This document shows, one piece after another, positions 2,174 through 41,605 of a stretch of 48,441 bases of DNA. Location: positions 1 through 48,441 of the forward strand of contig JAUVIV010000005.1 of assembly GCA_030592575.1 (NCBI GenBank), given 5' to 3'. The DNA is from a bacterium (lineage in GTDB: Bacteria; Hydrothermota; UBA3073; JACQXS01). Under the pieces are notes generated by a model. That model was not told the origin of the DNA, ran no database searches, and worked only from the letters and a program-made list of their open reading frames with translations. Numbering within the stretch: position 1 is the first letter of the stretch; the number at the start of each line of letters is the position of its first letter. The position numbers were made by a program, and so were the translations under genes.

Positions 2174-2201
2174 TGTCATTCTGAACTTGGTTCAGAATCT
2201 C
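2174..2201 (+). repeat. Left arm of a 28-nt perfect inverted repeat flanking the GIY-YIG gene
   Basis: The arm begins TGTCATTCTGAAC and ends GTTCAGAATCTC. Its core is itself a palindrome of TTCTGAAC and GTTCAGAA around a TTG loop. It is the exact reverse complement of 2525-2552. The GIY-YIG start codon lies 8 bases beyond its end. Confidence 0.95.
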
Positions 2202-2209
2202 AAGTATAT

Positions 2210-2473
2210 ATGAACAGGCAATATTATGTGTACATTCTCACAAATAAATCTAATAAAGTTCTTTATATCAGGGTAACAAATAGTCTGGAACGTAGAGTAT
2301 TTGAACACAAAAATAAATTAGTAGAGGGATTTTCAAAAAAGTATAACCTGAAAAAACTTGTGTACTATGAGGCAACAGATGATGTAATAAGTGCGATAAG
2401 GAGAGAAAAACAGCTTAAAAACTGGCGTAGAGATTGGAAGATAAATCTAATAAAGGAGTTTAATCCTGATTGA
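2210..2473 (+). CDS. Small GIY-YIG endonuclease-like protein inside an inverted-repeat module
   Basis: The 87-residue protein has the GIY-YIG fold: YYVYILTN, then LYIRVTN, then LERRVFEHK, and a C-terminal EKQLKNWRRDWK. It is the length of the stand-alone single-domain family. I chose the ATG at 2210 because an upstream in-frame extension would only translate the repeat. Two oddities suggest decay. The conserved Gly of the YIG motif is Arg (AGG for GGG). The family C-terminus NPDWKDL appears here as NPD, then TGA, then codons for KDLSEEF and a TAG at 2495-2497, as if Trp became a stop. Nuclease activity is therefore uncertain. The flanking inverted repeats suggest the gene moves with, or acts on, them (inference). 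Confidence 0.85.
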   Translation: MNRQYYVYILTNKSNKVLYIRVTNSLERRVFEHKNKLVEGFSKKYNLKKLVYYEATDDVISAIRREKQLKNWRRDWKINLIKEFNPD

Positions 2474-2524
2474 AAAGATTTAAGTGAGGAGTTTTAGGAG
2501 ATGCTGAAACAAACCTGCCCTGAA

Positions 2525-2552
2525 GAGATTCTGAACCAAGTTCAGAATGACA
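2525..2552 (-). repeat. Right arm of the 28-nt perfect inverted repeat flanking the GIY-YIG gene
   Basis: Exact reverse complement of 2174-2201. It lies within a decayed outer palindrome at about 2499-2573, where a GATGCTGAAAC stretch faces GTTCAGCATGAC, so elements of the same superfamily appear nested. Confidence 0.95.
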
Positions 2553-2722
2553 CTTTCAGGGTTCAGCATGACAGACTTTGTTCGGCATAACATGCTTTTA
2601 AGCTTCTCTAAAAAAAACTTAACAAAAATTAGATTAGACTATAGAGTCTATTATCAAAGTATAAGCAGAACTATTTAGAAGATAAATCAACTTACAGTAG
2701 AAGTTTTGATAAACCAAGTCCT

Positions 2723-12295: not shown

Positions 12296-13711
12296 ATGAG
12301 AAATATAACCTTCCACATAATCAGTTACGGTTGTCAGATGAATGTTTATGATTCAAGAATTATTGCAAGTATTTTATCCGAAAATGGATATAAAGAAACT
12401 GCCGATGAAAATAAAGCAGATATCGTTATTATGAATACTTGTAGTGTGAGAGAACACGCAGAGCAAAGAGCAATTGGGAGGATTGGTGATTTGCAGAAAT
12501 TCAGAGAGAAAAAACCAAATTTCCTTATTGGAGTAGTTGGTTGTATGGCACAAAATTTAGGCAATTCTATTAAAGGAGCAGATTTTGTAGTTGGTCCATC
12601 AGGTTATAGAAAATTACCGGAAATTATAGAATCAATATTCAAGACCAAAAACTCAAGCTCCAAAAAGTCTAATGCCTATACTCTAACATCTAATACCTCT
12701 CTTGAGCTTTATTCTGATATATTCCCTGAACCCGTTCCTGCACAGGTCAGAATGCCAGCATCTACCCTTCATCCTACTGCTTTTGTTTCTGTGATGCGGG
12801 GATGTAATAATTTTTGTTCCTATTGTATAGTTCCTTACGTAAGAGGACGGGCAAGGTCAAGACCTTCAAGCGATATTCTAAAAGAAATTGAGTTGCTTGC
12901 AAATAAAGGCGTAAAAGAAATAACTCTTCTTGGGCAATCTGTGAATGAATACTCATATAACGGAATTAACTTTTCTCAACTTTTAATGCTTACCGATGAG
13001 ATGCTGAAACAAGTTCAGCATGACAGTGTTCCCTGGATAAAATTTACAACTTCGCATCCTAAAGATATGAGTCAAGAATTGATAGATGCGATTAGAGATG
13101 GAGAAAAAATCTGCGAATGGATTCATTTGCCTATACAATCCGGATCTAATGAAGTTCTTAAAAAAATGGGCAGAGGATATACCAAAGAAAAATATCTCGA
13201 TTGGATTTATAAAATAAGGAAATCTATCCCAAACATTGCCATAACTACAGATATTCTGGTAGGTTTTCATGGGGAGAGTGACAAAAATTTCCAGGAAACA
13301 CTTGAGGTAATCAAAGAGGTAAGATTTGATTTTGCCTATATGTTTAAATATTCCGAACGACCTCGTACTAAGGCATATACTATGAAACCTATCGTTCCGG
13401 AAAAAATAAGAATTGAAAGATTGGAGAAATTAATAAACATTCAAAATGAAATAAGTTACGAGAAAAGCTCTGAACTCATAGGAACAACACAAGAAGTTTT
13501 AGTTCTTGGCAAAAGCAAGAAAGGCAATTCATTATACGGAAAAACAAGACAGAACAAAACGATAGTATTCGATAGTAGTAGCAAAATAACCCTACCCCTA
13601 CAAGGAGATTTCGTTGAAGTAAAAATAAAAGAACTACGCGGCTGGACACCTTACGGAAAACTCCTGTCAAAAAAAATTGAACCACAGAGAACACAGAGAA
13701 AAACTTCTTAA
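12296..13711 (+). CDS. miaB: tRNA-2-methylthio-N6-dimethylallyladenosine synthase (radical SAM)
   Basis: MiaB adds a methylthio group to i6A37 of tRNAs reading UNN codons. The 471-residue protein has the three MTTase-domain cysteines (SYGCQMN, NTCSVRE, VVGCMAQ), the radical SAM motif CNNFCSYC followed by IVPYVRGR, HPKDMS, LPIQSGS, and a C-terminal TRAM-like region. A 27-base palindromic repeat (12998-13024) is inserted in frame, adding EMLKQVQHD between LLMLTD and the conserved IKFTTSHPKDM. The last ten or so residues (EPQRTQRKTS) come from a second repeat family that also supplies the stop. Both additions are absent from typical MiaB. MiaB rather than MtaB/RimO is chosen from length and motif wording. 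Confidence 0.92.
   Translation: MRNITFHIISYGCQMNVYDSRIIASILSENGYKETADENKADIVIMNTCSVREHAEQRAIGRIGDLQKFREKKPNFLIGVVGCMAQNLGNSIKGADFVVGPSGYRKLPEIIESIFKTKNSSSKKSNAYTLTSNTSLELYSDIFPEPVPAQVRMPASTLHPTAFVSVMRGCNNFCSYCIVPYVRGRARSRPSSDILKEIELLANKGVKEITLLGQSVNEYSYNGINFSQLLMLTDEMLKQVQHDSVPWIKFTTSHPKDMSQELIDAIRDGEKICEWIHLPIQSGSNEVLKKMGRGYTKEKYLDWIYKIRKSIPNIAITTDILVGFHGESDKNFQETLEVIKEVRFDFAYMFKYSERPRTKAYTMKPIVPEKIRIERLEKLINIQNEISYEKSSELIGTTQEVLVLGKSKKGNSLYGKTRQNKTIVFDSSSKITLPLQGDFVEVKIKELRGWTPYGKLLSKKIEPQRTQRKTS
12998..13024 (+). repeat. 27-nt palindromic repeat inserted in frame within miaB
   Basis: Starts GAGATGCTGAAAC and ends GTTCAGCATGAC; nine codons, so the reading frame is preserved. The same 27-base form occurs outside genes at 38067-38093, and its mirror-type relatives flank the GIY-YIG gene. 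Confidence 0.92.
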
Positions 13712-14010
13712 CCGCAGATTACGCGGATGACACAGATAAAATATTTTTGAACTACTTTTAAGATTAAAGATTAGAAGATTCAAAGATTGGAAAGCATTTG
13801 CACACAGATTAACACAGATTGGAAGGATTACCACAGAGAGCACAGAGAAAAGAAAAAAATAGATAAAATTTATTTTTAAAAGTTTAACACAAATCAAATT
13901 TATTAGGGGAAAAGCTTTTCTGTTCGTGATAAGTTCGTGTTTATATTTTTATTCGTTTATTTGTGTCATTAGTGGTTAATGTATTATATATGAAAAACTG
14001 CAAAGAAAAT
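13680..14010. repeat. Composite ACACAGAG/ACACAGATT-type repeat patch between miaB and hutU
   Basis: This gene-free stretch holds several short related units of ACACAGAG, CGCAGATT and ACACAGATT type. The part at 13680-13755 recurs in inverted orientation at 38301-38365 and partly at 41475-41505. A 38-base unit at 13918-13955 recurs, inverted and with two mismatches, at 21024-21061. The first 32 bases encode the MiaB tail. Confidence 0.85.
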
Positions 14011-15763: not shown

Positions 15764-15863
15764 TGTCATTCTGAAGGAGCAAAGCAACTGAAGAATCTTG
15801 TTTTGGGTAAACTTTGTGAAGAGTCTTTTAGAGCGAGATTCTTCGCTATCGCTCAGAATGACA
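15764..15863. repeat. Inverted-pair palindromic element upstream of selA
   Basis: A left arm starting TGTCATTCTGA and ending AAGAATCT, a spacer of about 35 bases, and a right arm starting AGATTCTT and ending TCAGAATGACA. A close copy lies at 22164-22259. It ends 16 bases before the selA start codon, so the selA leader is repeat-derived. Confidence 0.9.
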
Positions 15864-15879
15864 AAAAATATTGGATATT

Positions 15880-17391
15880 ATGAAAGATATTCGTAGAGAG
15901 ATTCCGAGTATTGATAAATTGATAAAAAATAGTTGTTTTAAGGAGCATCCTCATAAATTGGTTCGTGAAATTCTTCGTAATACCACAGATAAATGGCGAG
16001 AAAAAATGAGAAAGACAGGTAACAATCAACAGTTGACAGTTAACGACTTGCAAAAGATTATAATACAGGAGACGCTTGTTGAATTAGAAAAAGTAGGGGC
16101 ATCTTGCGATACACCCAATTTCAAAAGAGTTATCAATGCTACTGGAGTTATTTTAAATACTAACCTCGGCAGAGCTCCTATTTCGAAACCTATATTGAAA
16201 TCTTTTGTACAAATCGGAAGTTCGTATTCTAATTTGGAATTTTCTCTTGAAACAGGTGAAAGAGGTAATAGGCACTCTCATATTGAAGAGCTTTTGAAAA
16301 AACTTACAGGAGCAGAGGCAGGCATTGTAGTTAATAATAACGCATTCGCACTGCTTCTAATTTTGGATACATTTGCAAAAGGTAAAGAAGTAATTGCTTC
16401 ACGAGGCGAATTAATAGAAATAGGTGGTTCGTTCAGATTGCCTGATATTTTGAACAAAAGCGGATGCAAACTCATAGAAGTAGGAACAACGAATCGTACT
16501 TATATTGAGGACTATGAAAAAAGCATTACAAAAAACACCGCATTATTGTTGAAAGCTCACACTTCCAATTATAAAATTATAGGTTTTACTCATACTTCCT
16601 CATTCAAAGAAATAGCAGCATTGGGCAAAAAACATAATATCTTAACTGTGGAAGATTTGGGTAGTGGACTACTTGTTGACCTACAGAATATAGGAGCACG
16701 CTATGGCGTGTCTTTACCGTATGAGCCAACGATTCAAGAAGCAGTTAAATCAGGTATAGATATTGTGAGTTTTAGTGGAGATAAATTATTAGGAGGTCCG
16801 CAATGTGGGATTATAATTGGTAAGGAAAAATATATAACTTTGCTTAAAAAGAATCCATTGTTTAGGGCTTTGCGTGTCGGGAAATTTACATTAGCTTGTT
16901 TGGAATCAATACTGCGAATTTATTTATACGAAGATGCTCCTGTTAGCAAAATCCCGCATCTGTCTATGATTACAGAGCCAGTTGCGAGCGTAAAAAAACG
17001 TGCAGAAAAATTATACAATAAACTTTCTAAAACATTAGGAAATGTAGGGGCGGTTCGCGAACCGCCCGTACTAAAATTAGAAGAATCAGAAGCAGAAATA
17101 GGTGGTGGAGCTTATCCCGGAGTAAAAATTCCAAGCTTTGCTGTAACTATCTCTTTGCCGGATGACAGGTCAGGAGACCTGTCCCTACCCGAAAAGGAAA
17201 ATTATTCTCCAGATTCTATAGCCAAAAAATTAAGAGAATGTAACCCACCAATTATCTCTCGTATAGCAAATAATAAAGTATGGTTAGATTTAAAAACAAT
17301 ATTTGAAGACGATATTGATTTGATTGTAGAGTGTTTTAAAAAATTATCACGAAACTCAGAAAATTCAGAAAGCATGAAAAATTGTAATTAA
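15880..17391 (+). CDS. selA: L-seryl-tRNA(Sec) selenium transferase
   Basis: SelA uses pyridoxal phosphate to convert seryl-tRNA(Sec) to selenocysteinyl-tRNA(Sec) with selenophosphate. Family segments are IPSIDKLIKN at the start, RVINATGVILNTNLGRAP, EDLGSGLLVD, and FSGDKLLGGPQ with the PLP lysine at about residue 302, followed by the C-terminal NPPIISRI. I chose ATG 15880; a TTG nine bases upstream is also possible. At 503 residues it is somewhat longer than usual, partly from two in-frame palindromic repeats (VGAVREPPV and the segment starting DDRSGDLSLP) in the C-terminal domain. selB and tRNA-Sec lie downstream. The leader is a repeat and no good ribosome site is visible. Confidence 0.95.
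   Translation: MKDIRREIPSIDKLIKNSCFKEHPHKLVREILRNTTDKWREKMRKTGNNQQLTVNDLQKIIIQETLVELEKVGASCDTPNFKRVINATGVILNTNLGRAPISKPILKSFVQIGSSYSNLEFSLETGERGNRHSHIEELLKKLTGAEAGIVVNNNAFALLLILDTFAKGKEVIASRGELIEIGGSFRLPDILNKSGCKLIEVGTTNRTYIEDYEKSITKNTALLLKAHTSNYKIIGFTHTSSFKEIAALGKKHNILTVEDLGSGLLVDLQNIGARYGVSLPYEPTIQEAVKSGIDIVSFSGDKLLGGPQCGIIIGKEKYITLLKKNPLFRALRVGKFTLACLESILRIYLYEDAPVSKIPHLSMITEPVASVKKRAEKLYNKLSKTLGNVGAVREPPVLKLEESEAEIGGGAYPGVKIPSFAVTISLPDDRSGDLSLPEKENYSPDSIAKKLRECNPPIISRIANNKVWLDLKTIFEDDIDLIVECFKKLSRNSENSESMKNCN
17044..17070 (+). repeat. 27-nt palindromic repeat in frame within selA (first)
   Basis: Core GGGCGGTTCGCGAACCGCCC is a perfect 20-base palindrome, bounded by GTAG and GTA. Nine codons (VGAVREPPV). 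It belongs to the same group as the GTAGGGGC elements at 30914 and 37863. Confidence 0.9.
17161..17188 (+). repeat. 28-nt palindromic repeat in frame within selA (second)
   Basis: GACAGGTC and GACCTGTC arms around AGGA, followed by CCTAC. It encodes DDRSGDLSLP in a part of SelA that is shorter in typical homologues. Confidence 0.8.
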
Positions 17392-17440
17392 ATAATTTCG
17401 TGTTTTCGTGATGGGTTTATTAAAGCAGTAAAAAAATGGG
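17376..17440 (+). repeat. Direct repeat, copy 1, after selA
   Basis: Starts GAAAAATTGTAATTAAATAA, continues TTTCGTG, and ends in an A-run followed by TGGG. It matches 18991-19048 apart from an extra 8-base TTTTCGTG unit and a few substitutions. Copy 1 contains the selA stop; copy 2 contains the stop of the 209-residue gene and the selB start. Confidence 0.85.
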
Positions 17441-17483: not shown

Positions 17484-17511
17484 TGTCATTCTGAGCGAAG
17501 CGAAGGAATCT
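17484..17511. repeat. Single arm of the GTCATT/AATCT palindromic family
   Basis: Starts TGTCATTCTGAGCGAAGCG and ends GGAATCT. It is embedded in ACGCAG/TTGTGTTC-type repeat sequence between selA and the cyclase-like gene. Confidence 0.8.
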
Positions 17512-17557
17512 TGTTTTTCTTTGTGTTCTTTGTGGTGAAATTTTTTGTGTTTTCGTG

Positions 17558-18316
17558 ATGAGTTTTTTTGATGTGATGAAAAATAAATGGTCATTGTTTA
17601 TTGATATAGAGGGTTTTTCTTCTATGTATCGGAAAGGTGAAGAAGAGAAAGCATTGAAACTTCTTTCTGATCTTATGTGTGATTCGTACAGGATTGGGAA
17701 AATTCGTTCAGATGATTCTAACAGACTTTTTATTTATCAATTTGGCGACGGTTTTCTTTTTTGCCCAGACTTTGAGGAGTCCGATTTAGAGAGACCTATA
17801 TCAATTGCTATTGCGTTAATGCAATTGACCATTTTGAAAGATGGATTTGTAAGAGTTGCTATTTCTTGTGGTGAAATGGCAGATATTCTTGGTTGTTATC
17901 ACAAAGAGATACGAGATAATGTTAAGGATGGTAACATAGGACTTGGTGCGGGAATTATGACTATCAATCAAGTAATGGGAACTGCACTTATCAATGCCCA
18001 TAAATTATCAAAGGATGGACCTAAGGGTCCACTATTGTTATTAGACAGTGAGTTGGACGCTCAGGTAAAACAGGTAGAAAATATAAAAGTTTATAAATGT
18101 GATAATCATATCTTGATTGACTGGATTCATTCTGAAGTTGCATCGGTAGATAAGATTTTCGAGAAGATAGGTTTAGGTGTGCCTTCTTCAGAAACCCTTG
18201 AAGAAAAAGTTAAGACCTATACTGATGAATTACCTGATAAATTGAAAGCATGGAAGAAAAACGCAGAGATTTTGATTAGAGGAGGAAAACTCTGTCCCAA
18301 TATGAACATCTGTTGA
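17558..18316 (+). CDS. Class III nucleotide-cyclase-like domain protein inserted between selA and selB
   Basis: The ~250-residue protein has the outline of a class III adenylate/guanylate cyclase homology domain: LFIDIEGFSSMYRKG near residue 15 and QFGDGFLFCPDF near residue 65, each holding a potential metal-binding Asp, then RVAISCGEMADI. No receiver, HAMP or membrane segment is seen. The usual transition-state Asn/Arg pair is not obvious, so catalysis is doubtful and it may be a degenerate sensor. ATG 17558 is chosen (GTG 17555 precedes it). Together with the next gene it separates selA from selB between direct repeats, so it is probably a later insertion with no proven tie to selenium. Confidence 0.55.
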   Translation: MSFFDVMKNKWSLFIDIEGFSSMYRKGEEEKALKLLSDLMCDSYRIGKIRSDDSNRLFIYQFGDGFLFCPDFEESDLERPISIAIALMQLTILKDGFVRVAISCGEMADILGCYHKEIRDNVKDGNIGLGAGIMTINQVMGTALINAHKLSKDGPKGPLLLLDSELDAQVKQVENIKVYKCDNHILIDWIHSEVASVDKIFEKIGLGVPSSETLEEKVKTYTDELPDKLKAWKKNAEILIRGGKLCPNMNIC

Positions 18317-18372: not shown

Positions 18373-19002
18373 ATGATACTTTGTATTTTTATGTTTCTTT
18401 TGTTGCCAGATATTGCTGAAATTACAGATTTTAGAAACACAAGATGGGGAATGAGCATAGAAGAAGTAAGAGGGATTGAAGATGATTCAGCATTTATAGA
18501 CAGTTCCAAATGGAAAGAAAACATAGATAGATTGAGTTATTATGAAAATCCGCTTGTATCGGGCAATGCGAGAAATTATTATTTCTTTGATAATAGGTTA
18601 TTTTGTGGGAGCTATGACTTGGAAACAGAATACTGTTATAAAAATCTCTATGGCGACCGTTATTGCAAAAGAGATCATGAAGAAGAACTTTATGACTATG
18701 AACGGATAAAGGAACTATTGACCAAAAAATACGGTAATCCAAGTGAAGATAAACATATTTGGGAAATTGATTCAATGGTAAAGTACTATGGCTTTGATGG
18801 TGGTCCTTATGATGGTAAAGTACCACTTTATTATGAAGTGCCTGAAATTGCTATTAGAGAAGGATATTTGGAATATTATACAATATGGGAAACCCAAAGG
18901 ACAGATATTGACTTACTTCTTAATAGTGAGTGGTTCAGACTAAGATATGGAAGCATTGAGTTGCAAAAGTTAAAGAAAGAAAAGTTATTAGAAAAATTGT
19001 AA
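18373..19002 (+). CDS. Secreted protein of unknown function (FRNTRWGMS motif)
   Basis: A short hydrophobic N-terminus (ILCIFMFLLLPDIAE) suggests a signal peptide. The mature part starts FRNTRWGMSIEEVR, a pattern seen at the start of many small exported proteins, and is rich in Tyr, Asp and Glu, with two Cys pairs in CGSYDLETEYC and the following DRYC. An AGGAGG site fixes the start. The C-terminal codons and stop (GAAAAATTGTAA) are part of the direct repeat found again at the end of selA. I do not recognise a function. Confidence 0.7.
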   Translation: MILCIFMFLLLPDIAEITDFRNTRWGMSIEEVRGIEDDSAFIDSSKWKENIDRLSYYENPLVSGNARNYYFFDNRLFCGSYDLETEYCYKNLYGDRYCKRDHEEELYDYERIKELLTKKYGNPSEDKHIWEIDSMVKYYGFDGGPYDGKVPLYYEVPEIAIREGYLEYYTIWETQRTDIDLLLNSEWFRLRYGSIELQKLKKEKLLEKL

Positions 19003-19048
19003 TTAAATAATTTCGTGATGGTTTTGTTGAGGCAATAAAAAAAATGGG
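18991..19048 (+). repeat. Direct repeat, copy 2, before selB
   Basis: Second copy of the selA-end/selB-start sequence at 17376-17440. The copies bracket a 1.6-kb insert carrying two genes. Confidence 0.85.
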
Positions 19049-21023: not shown

Positions 21024-21140
21024 CGAATAAAAACATAAACACGAATTTATCACGAACAGAATTTCTTTTGTTGGTTTTATACCGAACTGTCGTCAAAATA
21101 CTTAAAAGGTTTGCGTGCGAGGATACCCGCAAGAGCATCG
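21024..21140. repeat. Repeat-bearing intergenic stretch between tRNA-Sec and the LysR gene
   Basis: Bases 21024-21061 are an inverted 38-base copy of 13918-13955. Bases 21106-21140 (GGTTTGCGTGCGAGGA onwards) are an inverted relative of 30780-30813. No gene is seen here. Confidence 0.8.
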
Positions 21141-22163: not shown

Positions 22164-22259
22164 TGTCATTCTGAAGGAACGAAGCAACTGAAGAATCTCA
22201 TTCATGAGTAAACTCCGTGAAGAGTCTTGAAAGATTCTTCACTATCGCTCAGAATGACA
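22164..22259. repeat. Inverted-pair palindromic element upstream of the LysR gene
   Basis: Close copy of 15764-15863: a left arm from TGTCATTCTGAAGG to GAAGAATCT and a right arm from AGATTCTTC to CAGAATGACA. The rest of the 22093-22500 gap is AT-rich and shows nothing else I can name. Confidence 0.9.
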
Positions 22260-31503: not shown

Positions 31504-31537
31504 GAGATTGCTTCATCGCTTTGCTTCTCGCAATGAC
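31504..31537. repeat. Single palindromic arm, GAGATTGC...GCAATGAC type
   Basis: 34 bases starting GAGATTGC and ending GCAATGAC. It shares the termini GAGAT and ATGAC with the elements inside miaB and beside the GIY-YIG gene. Confidence 0.85.
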
Positions 31538-31566
31538 ATTTGTGTTAGTAGAATGTTTTTTACATT

Positions 31567-36625: not shown

Positions 36626-36665
36626 TTATTTGTTAATTTTGCGAGTTTCGTGATAAAAACTTAAA

Positions 36666-37787
36666 ATGAAAACTTATGACTCCATAGTAATTGGTGGTGG
36701 GATTTTTGGTTGTGCAACTGCCTACGAACTCACAAAACTTGGGCAAAAAGTGCTTCTTATTGAAAAAGAATATCTTGGTTCAGGTTCAACCGGAAGATGC
36801 ATATCCGGAATACGACAACAATTCTCAACTCCCGAAACTATAAAACTTTCTATGTTGAGTGTCCATATTTTCAAAGAACTACACGAAAAGTTTGGAATTG
36901 AATGGCATCAAGGAGGGTATTTATTTCTTGCTTCTTCTCAATCACAGAAAGAAAAATATCTTGAACTTATAAAAATCCAGCACCAAATGGGATTGCAAGT
37001 TAATTTCATTGACCCTAAAGAGATATTAGAACTTGTTTCCTGCTTTCAATTGAAAAATATTGTCGGAGCTTCGTATTGCCCAACAGACGGACAAGCAAAT
37101 CCTTTCCTTGTAATCCAGAGATATGTTGAACAAATTAAAAAACTTAAAAGTGAAATTTCAACTTTTACAAAAGTAATAAAAATACAAAAAAATCATACTT
37201 TTTCAGTTTTTACCGACACCAATGATGCATACGAAACTCCTGTCATTGTAAATGCCGGAGGAGCTTGGGCTCAAGAAATAAATAAACTTGTAGGGGCAAT
37301 TAGCGAATTGCCTTTACAGCCTGAACGACACGAAGCTCTTGTTACTGAACCGACAAAACCACTATTTGACCCGATGATAGTAAGTTATGATCCCAGTTGT
37401 TATTTTCAACAACTTCATAGCACCGGTCAAATAATAGGATGTTATACTCCGGATTCTTCCGATAAAGGAATAAATCGTGATTCTTCGTTTGAATTTGCAC
37501 CTGAGTTTTCTTCTCGTGCATTAAAAATCATACCAAAACTTGCCGAGCTAAAAGTAATACGAAGTTGGGCAGGATGGTACACAATGACTCCTGATGGCAA
37601 TCCGATTATTGGTGAGACTCAAGTACCCGGATTCTTTTTAATTGGAGGAGGAAGTGGGCACGGTTTTATGCTTGGACCTGCACTCGGTAAAGTACTTGCA
37701 GAACTTATCTGTAAAAAACCTACGAGCATCTCAATAGATGAGTTTTCAATTAATCGCTCATTTGAAGGAAAAGAAGCTCTCAAATAG
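36666..37787 (+). CDS. FAD-dependent amino-acid/sarcosine oxidase-type oxidoreductase
   Basis: The 373-residue protein belongs to the DAO family (glycine oxidase, sarcosine oxidase beta). It has the FAD motif IVIGGGIFGCATAYELTKLG at the N-terminus with IEKEYLGSGSTGR, NAGGAWAQEIN in the middle, and the C-terminal GWYTMTPDGNPIIGE and IGGGSGHGFMLGPALGK. The substrate cannot be read; a secondary or tertiary amine or amino acid is likely. A 27-base GTAGGGGC-type palindrome lies in frame at residues 209-217 (VGAISELPL). The adjacent convergent genes catabolise lysine, but no direct link is evident. Confidence 0.85.
   Translation: MKTYDSIVIGGGIFGCATAYELTKLGQKVLLIEKEYLGSGSTGRCISGIRQQFSTPETIKLSMLSVHIFKELHEKFGIEWHQGGYLFLASSQSQKEKYLELIKIQHQMGLQVNFIDPKEILELVSCFQLKNIVGASYCPTDGQANPFLVIQRYVEQIKKLKSEISTFTKVIKIQKNHTFSVFTDTNDAYETPVIVNAGGAWAQEINKLVGAISELPLQPERHEALVTEPTKPLFDPMIVSYDPSCYFQQLHSTGQIIGCYTPDSSDKGINRDSSFEFAPEFSSRALKIIPKLAELKVIRSWAGWYTMTPDGNPIIGETQVPGFFLIGGGSGHGFMLGPALGKVLAELICKKPTSISIDEFSINRSFEGKEALK
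37290..37316 (+). repeat. Possible 27-nt palindrome in frame in the FAD oxidoreductase gene
   Basis: Starts GTAGGGGC, with GGCAATT and AATTGCC around AGCG. Exactly nine codons and the same terminal GTAGGGGC as the selA copy, but the protein aligns with its family with only about two extra residues, so chance or replacement is possible. Confidence 0.5.
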
Positions 37788-37849: not shown

Positions 37850-38365
37850 ACAGATTTGTACAGTAGAGGCGTTTAATTAAACGCCCCTACAATCTCAGAC
37901 AGAAGCAAGCTTCTGCAATCCAAAATATCGCCGAGATTTATCCTCGGCAAAAACAAATATGGGGGATAAACCCCCACGCTACGAAGAATTAAGGATTTGA
38001 GGAGATTTGCAAAAGAAATGTCATTCCGAACTTGTTTCGGAATCTCAAAAAGAAGAAAGTCTTTAAGAGATGCTGAAATAAATTCAGCATGACACTTGGG
38101 GGAGTTCTATAAACAAATCAAGGAAGGCAATGAATGAGTCAGAGAGTTCTTTGAATCTTCAATTTTGAATCTTCAATCTATAGTTTCTTTGTGTTCTCCA
38201 TATTCTTTATGGTTCATTTTTTTGTAGTTAAAAAGTTTTTATTCTATGATTCTTCTTTTCTCCGTGTTCTCTGCGGTGAGAATTTTTTTAGTGTTCTTTG
38301 TAGTTTAAAATATTTTATCTGTGTCATCTGCGGTTAAGAAGTTTTCCTCTGTGTTCTCTGTGGTT
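37850..38365. repeat. Gene-free repeat patch between the FAD oxidoreductase and saccharopine dehydrogenase genes
   Basis: Holds a GTAGAGGCGTTTAATTAAAC palindrome (37863-37890), GCCGAGATTTATCCTCGGC (37930-37948), GGGGGATAAACCCCC (37961-37975), the inverted-pair element 38020-38093, and a run of TTGTGTTC/CTGTGGTT units from about 38175. The last part (38301-38365) is an inverted copy of 13680-13755 and abuts the dehydrogenase stop. Confidence 0.85.
38020..38093. repeat. Short inverted-pair element, a gene-less counterpart of the GIY-YIG module
   Basis: Left arm 38020-38046 (GTCATTCCGAAC to GGAATCTC), a 20-base spacer, right arm 38067-38093 (GAGATGCTGAAA to CAGCATGAC). Both arms are 27 bases and inward-facing, as at the GIY-YIG gene, but no gene lies between them. 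Confidence 0.85.
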
Positions 38366-39645
38366 TAAAAATCTTTGCTCCGTTTACATTCCTGAGTTTT
38401 TTCGTTAAAAGTTATTCCTTGTTGTTCAAGTTCTTTTAACATTATTTCATAAATTTCTGGTAATGTTGGAATACAAACTCCTTTGGAATTTATTTTTCCT
38501 TCTAAAATCAATTTAGTTCCAATTGCGGCTGGCAATCCTACTGTACTTGACATTGACGAATCTCCTCCCGGAATCCCAAAATCTACAAGAGTGGAAGTGA
38601 TTTTTTTCTTCCGTTCACTGAAACTTGCAAGGAATTCGTGGTGCAAAATAATCATATCCCTCTCCTTTGGCTCGTATTGAAGTTTCTCAAATAACCGACT
38701 TGACAAAACATCAAGTGCAGATCCTTTCTTAAGTGGCAAAGTTTTTTCGCTTAAAAGTCCCAGCCACTCAAATTTACGCATAACCTCAGAATCCGTTTCT
38801 AACTCTCCGTTGACAAATTCCTTGTATGTAAGTCCTTCAAGTTTTTTTTCTTCTTCATCAAGCAAACCGATTTTCCCTATTAATCGCCAAATTTTACACC
38901 ATCCAAGATTCCGAAGAGTTCCCCTGTACATTGTTTTCACTCCAGAAATACCATATTTTTCAATATAAGGAATAGAGTCCCGATTTGGATAAGCTTCGAA
39001 TTCGCCAAATTCTCCTATTTTGACAATTGAATAATCATCAAAAAGGTGCTCTCCTGAAATTTCTATTTTCTCCCCATCTTTAAGATATCTGGCATTGTTT
39101 TTCAAGGCAAGAACAGCTCCTTTTGGACTCCATGAAAACTTATATCCCCAAGGATTTGTGTTTGCCTCCGGAGCTAGAAGCCCACCACAATAACTACAGA
39201 AACTTGTAATCTTTCCGCCAGAATTTTGAACCTTATGAATTATCTGCATTGCAGACATATGGTCAATTCCGGGGTCAAGTCCTATTTCATTTAATATAAG
39301 TACACCTGCATTCTTTGCTTGATTATCAAGAGCTTGCATTTTGGCACTCACATAAGAAGTCGTTACCATTGGTTTTTTATGCTTAATACAAAGCTCTGCT
39401 ATCATTGGATGATAAATATAAGGTAGTAAACTTATCACAATATCAACATCTGGTATCTCATTATTTAATTTTAATAACTCGGTTGATACATCCAGTTTCC
39501 CAAATTTGCCTCTTGGATGACCTGCAATCACCTTCTCTGCATCACTAACAGTTCTGGTAAGTATTTTTACCTGAAAATCGTTAAGCAGATAGCGAATCAA
39601 TGGTTTTATAACCATTCCCGCTCCAAGAACCAAAACTTTCTTCAC
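38365..39645 (-). CDS. Saccharopine dehydrogenase (glutamate-forming), SDH half of LKR/SDH type
   Basis: The enzyme oxidises saccharopine to glutamate and aminoadipate semialdehyde. The 426-residue protein has an NAD(P) Rossmann motif (VLVLGAGMVIKPLIRYL), ISLLPYIYHPMIAELCI, NEIGLDPGIDHMSAM, SYCGGLLAPEANTNPWGYKFSWSP, YPNRDS and YRGTLRNLGW. These match the C-terminal half of plant and animal LKR/SDH (AASS) more closely than fungal LYS9 alone (from memory). Four-base overlap with the preceding membrane gene; the LKR partner is two genes upstream. Its stop codon lies at the edge of a dispersed repeat. Confidence 0.9.
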   Translation of the reverse strand: MKKVLVLGAGMVIKPLIRYLLNDFQVKILTRTVSDAEKVIAGHPRGKFGKLDVSTELLKLNNEIPDVDIVISLLPYIYHPMIAELCIKHKKPMVTTSYVSAKMQALDNQAKNAGVLILNEIGLDPGIDHMSAMQIIHKVQNSGGKITSFCSYCGGLLAPEANTNPWGYKFSWSPKGAVLALKNNARYLKDGEKIEISGEHLFDDYSIVKIGEFGEFEAYPNRDSIPYIEKYGISGVKTMYRGTLRNLGWCKIWRLIGKIGLLDEEEKKLEGLTYKEFVNGELETDSEVMRKFEWLGLLSEKTLPLKKGSALDVLSSRLFEKLQYEPKERDMIILHHEFLASFSERKKKITSTLVDFGIPGGDSSMSSTVGLPAAIGTKLILEGKINSKGVCIPTLPEIYEIMLKELEQQGITFNEKTQECKRSKDF

Positions 39646-41434: not shown

Positions 41435-41474
41435 ATTATAAGCTTGATAGTCTATGGTTACTCGCGTTGCTATT

Positions 41475-41605
41475 CAAAAATATTTTATCTGTGTCATCTG
41501 TGGTTAAAAATCCTTATTCGTGTCCATTCGTGGTTAATACTATTTTTTCTTTGCGTCCTCTGCGTCTCTGCGGTAAAAATTCTTTTTTAGTGTCCTTTGT
41601 AGTTC
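41475..41605. repeat. Dispersed repeat patch at the 3' end of folC
   Basis: Contains the ATTTTATCTGTGTCATCTG unit shared with 38301-38365 and, inverted, with 13680-13755, then ATTCGTGTCCATTCGTGG and TTGCGTCCTCTGCGTCTCTG units. Bases 41540-41605 are translated as the FolC tail. Confidence 0.85.

Follow-up and report, generated by a model that had tools for sequence, protein, structure and literature searches.

A GIY-YIG nuclease gene framed by CGTC/TGTC-tagged REP hairpins: a likely mobile REP-nuclease module

Results and discussion

Organization of the nuclease locus

The window analysed here, i.e. the whole 48,441-nucleotide stretch of contig JAUVIV010000005.1 from a bacterium of the phylum Hydrothermota, contains near its start a small nuclease gene that is framed on both sides by tagged hairpin repeats (REPs). 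The features of this locus are as follows:

2174..2201, + strand: left arm, tagged hairpin TGTC-ATTCTGAAC-TTG-GTTCAGAAT-CTC with its tail towards the gene (exact inverted repeat; family found genome-wide)
2210..2473, + strand: GIY-YIG nuclease gene, 87 aa, with TGA at 2471-2473 (Pfam PF01541, 51 bits; translation; family alignment)
2474..2497, + strand: remnant of the original C-terminus (KDLSEEF), with the original stop TAG at 2495-2497 (frame as in relatives, which read WKDLYEEL)
2498..2573, - strand: right arm, a nested compound of an outer REP (2498-2510 + 2561-2573) with a second REP unit (2511-2560) in its loop
2525..2552, - strand: right-side inner REP, exact reverse complement of the left arm

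The initial annotation had described a GIY-YIG nuclease gene bracketed by perfect 28-nt inverted palindromic repeats. Both parts of this description held, given the Pfam match and the 28/28 reverse-complement match between 2174-2201 (+) and 2525-2552 (-), with two corrections: the gene copy is probably inactive, and the right side is nested rather than one simple arm. The window protein carries Arg in place of the near-invariant glycine of the YIG motif (YIR; position G21 lost), and the TGA at 2471-2473 falls at the position of a conserved Trp88, which makes it a premature stop, with KDLSEEF still readable downstream in frame. We infer from sequence alone that this copy is likely a dead, decaying member of its family that is probably no longer autonomous.

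Each window arm consists of an unpaired four-base TGTC tag, a 9-bp stem, a 3-nt loop and an unpaired CTC tail, and folds as single-stranded DNA at -6.5 kcal/mol compared with a shuffled mean of -1.3 (z = -4.5). Among 16 distinct sequences of the 28-nt family (15 from a genome-wide search and one from window positions 38019-38046), both-side changes were found at 4 of the 9 stem pairs, and the covariation score exceeded those of all 500 shuffles and all slid controls; the palindrome is therefore maintained.

On the minus strand, 2498-2573 reads TGTCATGCTGAAC[...]GTTTCAGCATCTC, i.e. an outer REP whose loop holds the 2525-2552 arm with short flanks, and the inner tail of the outer REP lies directly after the TAG at 2495-2497, in frame with the nuclease. 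A 93% identical copy of this 76-nt compound occurs at a non-orthologous place in a genome of the same genus, G134 (C3:35906-35981), and it is possible that REP loops are favoured insertion sites. A clean empty site at the window locus itself was sought in G134 and rejected, as the region downstream of purC is unrelated sequence; G134 is moreover only 81% identical to the window, too diverged for junctions to be resolved at the level of single bases. The G134 region downstream of purC contains a degenerate tandem array with units like GAGTTCCCCGAGTGACTTAGAGACATCCCTGAATGA.

Gene-less REP pairs and the genome-wide REP population

Elsewhere in the window, REPs occur without the gene, as pairs and as single units:

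38019..38046, + strand: left REP of a gene-less pair, TGTCATTCCGAACTTGTTTCGGAATCTC (motif scan)
38067..38094, - strand: right REP of the same pair, TGTCATGCTGAATTTATTTCAGCATCTC (motif scan)
15764..15863, no strand assigned: gene-less REP pair (15764-15799 +, 15835-15863 -; relatives elsewhere in the genome)
22164..22259, no strand assigned: gene-less REP pair, subfamily of 15764-15863 (motif scan and genome relatives)
12998..13025, - strand: single REP within the coding sequence of miaB (in-frame insertion of net 21 bp compared with G134)
17484..17512, + strand: single REP with imperfect stem (sequence comparison)
31504..31538, - strand: single REP of GCGAG type (motif scan)

All three pairs and all three single arms had been proposed previously and were confirmed; what is added is the position of 12998-13025 within miaB, where seven codons have been gained in frame (DEMLKQVQHDSVPW vs DGTGVPW in G134). 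Relatives of the pair at 15764-15863, approximately 115 bp long and 77-81% identical, are present at three further places in the genome.

A scan for perfect stems returned too few REPs, since internal mismatches are frequent among them, and was replaced by a motif anchored on the tag and 3 bp of stem. This motif gave 11 matches in the window vs 0-7 (mean 2.4) in Markov shuffles and none in the reversed sequence. The pattern TGTCATNCTGA...TCTC was found at approximately 70 distinct places in the 2.49-Mb genome from which the window comes (G000) vs none for the reversed pattern, and a second REP pattern at 133 places in G000. REPs here are thus present in many copies, as singles and as pairs with outward tags, with one unit inside miaB.

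Two further interspersed repeat families were observed. One (ATCTGTGTCATCTGCGGTTAA type), which has no sequence relationship to the REPs, lies at window positions 13668-13840, 38304-38377 and 41473-41510; G133 and G134 contain dozens of copies of it. The other, built around TTTCGTGATAAA, is present in several copies and both orientations (13910-13955, 17334-17421, 17543-17568, 18991-19028, 21024-21069 and 36629-36666).

The nuclease family

The clade to which the window gene belongs consists of single-domain proteins of about 95 aa, in which Y8, Y19, H33, E66 and N85 are invariant (N85 in 58 sequences) and G21 and R29 near-invariant. The clade thereby satisfies the criterion of a GIY-YIG fold with catalytic Tyr, Arg and Glu; the window copy lacks G21. 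Values of dN/dS between 0.08 and 0.13 in eight close pairs indicate that the nuclease is under selection as a protein. An AlphaFold2 model (pLDDT 94.9) is most similar to the UPF0213 protein BH0048 (1zg2), followed by Slx1 and UvrC nuclease domains. Since Slx1 cleaves branched DNA in a structure-selective manner, recognition of extruded hairpins by the enzymes studied here is plausible, although this remains an inference. The nuclease matched no NCBIfam model over its cut-off, with only a weak sub-threshold match of a relative to TIGR01453 (group I intron endonuclease), and no PADLOC defence family.

Bracketing of the nuclease across phyla

Homologues were gathered by protein similarity alone, and a gene was counted as bracketed when an inward-tailed REP was present within 250 bp on both sides. 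Enrichment of arms beside the gene in other genomes, which the initial annotation had proposed as a check, was favourable at both scales. Thirty genomes of the window's phylum carry a close homologue; in 20 fetched regions of 9-20 kb, 13 of the 20 homologues were bracketed vs 2 of 340 other genes in the same stretches. The 80 best matches from a collection of 84,980 species genomes belong to about 20 phylum-level groups, including Chloroflexota, Cyanobacteriota, Omnitrophota, Elusimicrobiota, Ignavibacteriota, Bacillota, Planctomycetota, Melainabacteria, Pseudomonadota and several Patescibacteria lineages, and 52 of these were bracketed vs 6 of 589 neighbouring control genes (p = 7e-50). Control genes on the same contigs are thus bracketed some 60-100 times more rarely than the nuclease.

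The arrangement of the arms is also fixed. Where both arms were present, the nearest ones pointed their tags outward at 41 loci vs 5 with the reverse orientation (control genes, 3 vs 9). Modules are compact, with a size of approximately 330-400 bp and median distances of 24.5 bp from start codon to arm and 21.5 bp from stop codon to arm. At many loci the right arm adjoins the stop codon or overlaps it, with overlap at 10 of the 52 bracketed loci. Nearly all arms surveyed carry the TGTC/CGTC tag. The tail is CTC, CTT or CTA at most loci and CCA at alphaproteobacterial loci, and some families have stems with internal mismatches and longer apical parts.

Bracketing is specific to this clade. Genes of the other small GIY-YIG subfamily in the window's phylum (~30-47% identical, lacking the C-terminal Asn and resembling UPF0213/YhbQ/Slx1-like proteins) were bracketed in 0 of 21 cases, and of 30 genes for Y1 (RAYT-type) transposases, a common kind in the phylum, none had such REPs on either side. 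Among 147 genomes of the phylum, the nuclease is carried by 29 of the 73 that contain at least five REPs vs 1 of the 74 that contain fewer, and the single exception has no arms at its nuclease locus. The remaining 44 REP-rich genomes have no close nuclease, so REPs persist without it. Four of the genomes without a close nuclease (G121, G131, G119 and G075) contain 67-214 REPs; the enzyme may have been lost, the assemblies may be incomplete, or there may be another mobiliser.

It should be noted that about one third of the homologues have no arms on both sides that are detectable with the motif used. This motif is anchored on GTCAT and blind to diverged REP types, and bracketing is therefore underestimated. 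Control genes were taken from simple ORF calling, and many loci lie on contigs of metagenome-assembled genomes. A phage origin of the nuclease was rejected, as only 27 viral-contig homologues exceed 40% identity; 5 of these are bracketed.

Matching of enzyme and repeat type

Modules vary in their stem core (GCGA, CTGA, CCGA, CCCG or CTCG), and the left and right arms of one module share it in 58 of 67 cases vs 26 expected. Mapped onto a tree of 106 nucleases, the arm core requires 20 changes, compared with 35.9 when shuffled (minimum 31 of 200) and 32.8 when shuffled within host phyla only (minimum 28 of 300). While the tree rests on few columns and most of its forks are unresolved, the fact that the arm core tracks the protein tree, also within phyla, indicates that the nuclease matches and travels with its REP type independently of the host. 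REPs more than 500 bp from the gene likewise match the module arms (46% vs 21% expected).

Several loci depart from the simple module. The nucleases of Novosphingobium aromaticivorans (L236 4001-4327) and Sphingobium (L269 2513-2776) are bracketed by repeats, perfect or nearly so, in which (C)GTC is retained but the stems differ (CGTCGCCCCGTGCTTGACACGGGGCTTGGCT; GTCACCCCGGGCTTGACCCGGGGTCCC). The N. aromaticivorans module has a perfect 31-nt inverted repeat that starts with CGTC and has a wholly different stem, as would be expected if the tag, not the stem, were the fixed part. Modules of the CCCG type (Azospirillum, Neisseria dRS3) have REP pairs or arrays, not single arms, on the two sides of the gene, and on a Planktothrix agardhii plasmid the module is flanked by MmeI-type restriction and DISARM drmA genes, with at least eight REPs around it.

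Presence/absence sites and a gene-deleted derivative

Plasmid records searched at the protein level yielded homologues in Azospirillum lipoferum, Sinorhizobium meliloti, N. aromaticivorans and Neisseria gonorrhoeae; CGTC-type REPs have been published from A. lipoferum, S. meliloti, N. aromaticivorans and Neisseria (PMC3733652). The nuclease gene of A. lipoferum 4B, flanked on either side by a REP pair, lies between sufB and sufC, and the 95-96% identical sufB-sufC operons of A. ramasamyi, A. oryzae and B510 contain neither module nor REPs. In S. meliloti Ak57 the module lies on pSymB between gltA and lpxB. The 95.5% identical site of Sinorhizobium K101 lacks the module and has in its place a single symmetric hairpin with GTC/GAC tags at its two sides, built as though the left arm had contributed its left half and the right arm its right half. 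This hairpin may be an excision scar or the original target, and we cannot decide between the two. Between S. meliloti and two Shinella plasmids, homology extends from the first base of the left arm to the right arm with unrelated flanks, and Shinella H4-D48 lacks module and REPs at the corresponding Shinella site.

S. meliloti Ak57 also carries, beside the intact module, a copy that has kept both arms, has lost 213 bp internally, and is 95% identical over the rest; it is a gene-less derivative in the making. Genomes usually contain one to four gene-bearing modules, so the nuclease gene itself amplifies little.

No target-site duplication or flush junction was recognised in the Azospirillum, Sinorhizobium and Shinella comparisons, in which extra REPs and divergence blur the boundaries; insertions often take in extra REPs, and the Azospirillum and Shinella/H4-D48 boundaries are blurred in this way. 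A within-genus comparison of G079, G080, G081 and G082 was set aside, as several kb differ around the module. The search for empty sites that the initial annotation had called for was also favourable, with presence/absence sites in three named genera, although no flush junction with target duplication was found. Its reading of an autonomous element with non-autonomous derivatives is supported, directly so in S. meliloti Ak57, with the reservation made above for the window copy. That the nuclease moves or processes the repeats remains inference.

Relationship to known systems

The closest parallel is REP/BIME with RAYT (TnpA-REP), the 'REPtron' (PMC2817692, PMC3733652, PMC8266576), a likeness that had been suggested at the outset and is supported. 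In both systems tagged hairpins bracket a low-copy enzyme gene, enzyme and repeat type match, and many gene-less copies, single, paired or intragenic, accompany few gene-bearing ones, as with RAYT and REPINs. RAYT, however, is a Y1 HUH transposase associated with a GTAG tag, whereas the enzyme here is a GIY-YIG protein of about 95 aa with a CGTC/TGTC tag; the criteria of Y1 transposase and GTAG tag are not satisfied.

The repeats themselves fit the CGTC-tagged REP superfamily (Di Nocera 2013, PMC3733652), which includes Neisseria dRS3 and Rickettsia RPE-4/RPE-6 and is defined by an unpaired CGTC (variants TGTC, CCTC), an 8-9 bp stem starting with AT, and a 3-nt tail that is mostly CCA (PMC3733652). 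Shared features are the unpaired CGTC/TGTC tag, the A-T/T-A start of the stem (the 9-bp window stem begins with AT and satisfies this criterion), the 3-nt tail, dimers with outward tags and intragenic units. Hosts of the superfamily (Neisseria, N. aromaticivorans, A. lipoferum, S. meliloti) have the homologous nuclease beside such repeats or beside a tag-bearing variant. Unlike most published families, with a CCA tail, the window REPs end in CTC; no enzyme was reported in PMC3733652, where CGTC-type REPs were said in 2013 to be without a dedicated transposase. The GIY-YIG superfamily analysis does not mention such repeats (PMC1564403), and no literature joining GIY-YIG genes with REPs was found in the full text searched. 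The link between this nuclease and CGTC-type REPs appears to be new here; preprints and most subscription journals lay outside the search, and priority is therefore not certain.

Three other systems share some of these features. Free-standing GIY-YIG homing endonucleases (I-TevI group, Seg) have the nuclease domain with catalytic Tyr/Arg/Glu, but the REP nuclease has no NUMOD or other DNA-binding domain, is intergenic rather than intronic, is rare in viral contigs and is framed by hairpins. UPF0213/YhbQ and bacterial Slx1-like proteins have a similar fold and size and include the nearest solved structure (1zg2, BH0048), but lack the invariant C-terminal Asn85 of the REP nuclease (Slx1-like family, PMC1564403), and none of their members in the phylum is REP-bracketed (0/21). 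MITEs and their parent insertion sequences likewise combine inverted terminal repeats with autonomous copies and internally deleted derivatives, but the module ends are tagged palindromes, there is no DDE or HUH transposase, and no target-site duplication was seen.

Alternative explanations

The main rival, which we consider unlikely, is a homing variant, in which a free-standing homing endonuclease cuts gene-less REP pairs or hairpins and repair copies the gene in via arm homology, the REPs being targets that have spread otherwise. In its favour are the GIY-YIG fold, which is a classical homing nuclease fold, the weak TIGR01453 match of a relative, the REP within a REP loop in the window, and the gene-less K101 site, whose symmetric GTC..GAC hairpin fits either an uncut target or an excision scar. 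Against it, the deleted S. meliloti copy keeps both arms and internal sequence, and homologues are rare in viral contigs. The empty sister sites in Azospirillum and Shinella H4-D48 have no detectable REP, so insertion there was not into a pre-existing one. Neither the K101 site nor the nested arm excludes homing; that it is the only route is disfavoured by the sister sites without REPs.

Host regulation, in which the hairpins would act as RNA-level terminators or stabilisers insulating a gene whose nuclease serves unrelated repair or defence, is very unlikely. REPs do lie near start and stop codons, are able to act as RNA hairpins, and in the control set are also found downstream of ordinary genes. 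Insulation, however, does not predict homology from arm to arm at unrelated sites, internally deleted copies, or the correlation of arm core and protein across phyla, and no PADLOC family matches the nuclease.

Passive association, i.e. the gathering of REPs and acquired small genes in permissive intergenic DNA without functional link, would suit the general REP-richness of nuclease genomes and the several loci inside clusters of many REPs, but is already contradicted, and all but excluded, by the rarity of bracketing among same-contig control genes, its absence from the other small GIY-YIG and Y1 transposase genes of the phylum (0/21, 0/30), the fixed orientation, and an arm type that tracks the protein tree within and across phyla.

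Proposed model and significance

We conclude that the locus is likely a compact mobile REP-nuclease module and the GIY-YIG protein the cognate enzyme of CGTC/TGTC-type REPs; cleavage and movement are inferred, without an assay. Observed directly are the bracket, its specificity and spread, the co-inheritance of arm type, the presence/absence sites, the arm-to-arm unit at unrelated sites and the gene-deleted derivative: the REP-bracketed gene is gained or lost as a unit, matches the REPs of its host and yields gene-less derivatives.

In the proposed mechanism, the module comprises a tagged hairpin repeat, the GIY-YIG gene and an inverted second copy of the repeat. The enzyme would bind the tagged hairpin, single-stranded or extruded, and would nick or cut at or near the GTC tag, after which host repair or replication may copy the arms with the gene, or the arms alone, to new places. 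Internal deletion of the gene would leave arm pairs, and these pairs and the single arms would form the REP population of the genome. The logic would resemble that of RAYT and REP, with an unrelated nuclease fold.

Few small bacterial repeats are as common as the CGTC-type REPs, and there is now a specific candidate enzyme, found beside them in about 20 phyla and small enough to purify. If the mobile-module reading is true, the REP/RAYT paradigm would gain a second, unrelated enzyme class, the origin of the gene-less repeats would be explained, and a function could be assigned to a large clade whose members carry no annotation beyond 'GIY-YIG nuclease family protein' or 'excinuclease ABC subunit C'. 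A bolder reading, which we regard as equally likely to prove right or wrong, is that the clade represents a previously unrecognised class of REP-mobilising enzyme and that a hydrolytic, structure-selective hairpin nuclease disperses, or once dispersed, the CGTC-type REPs of about 20 phyla, Neisseria dRS3 and the alphaproteobacterial families among them, which would constitute a transposition route without HUH or DDE chemistry.
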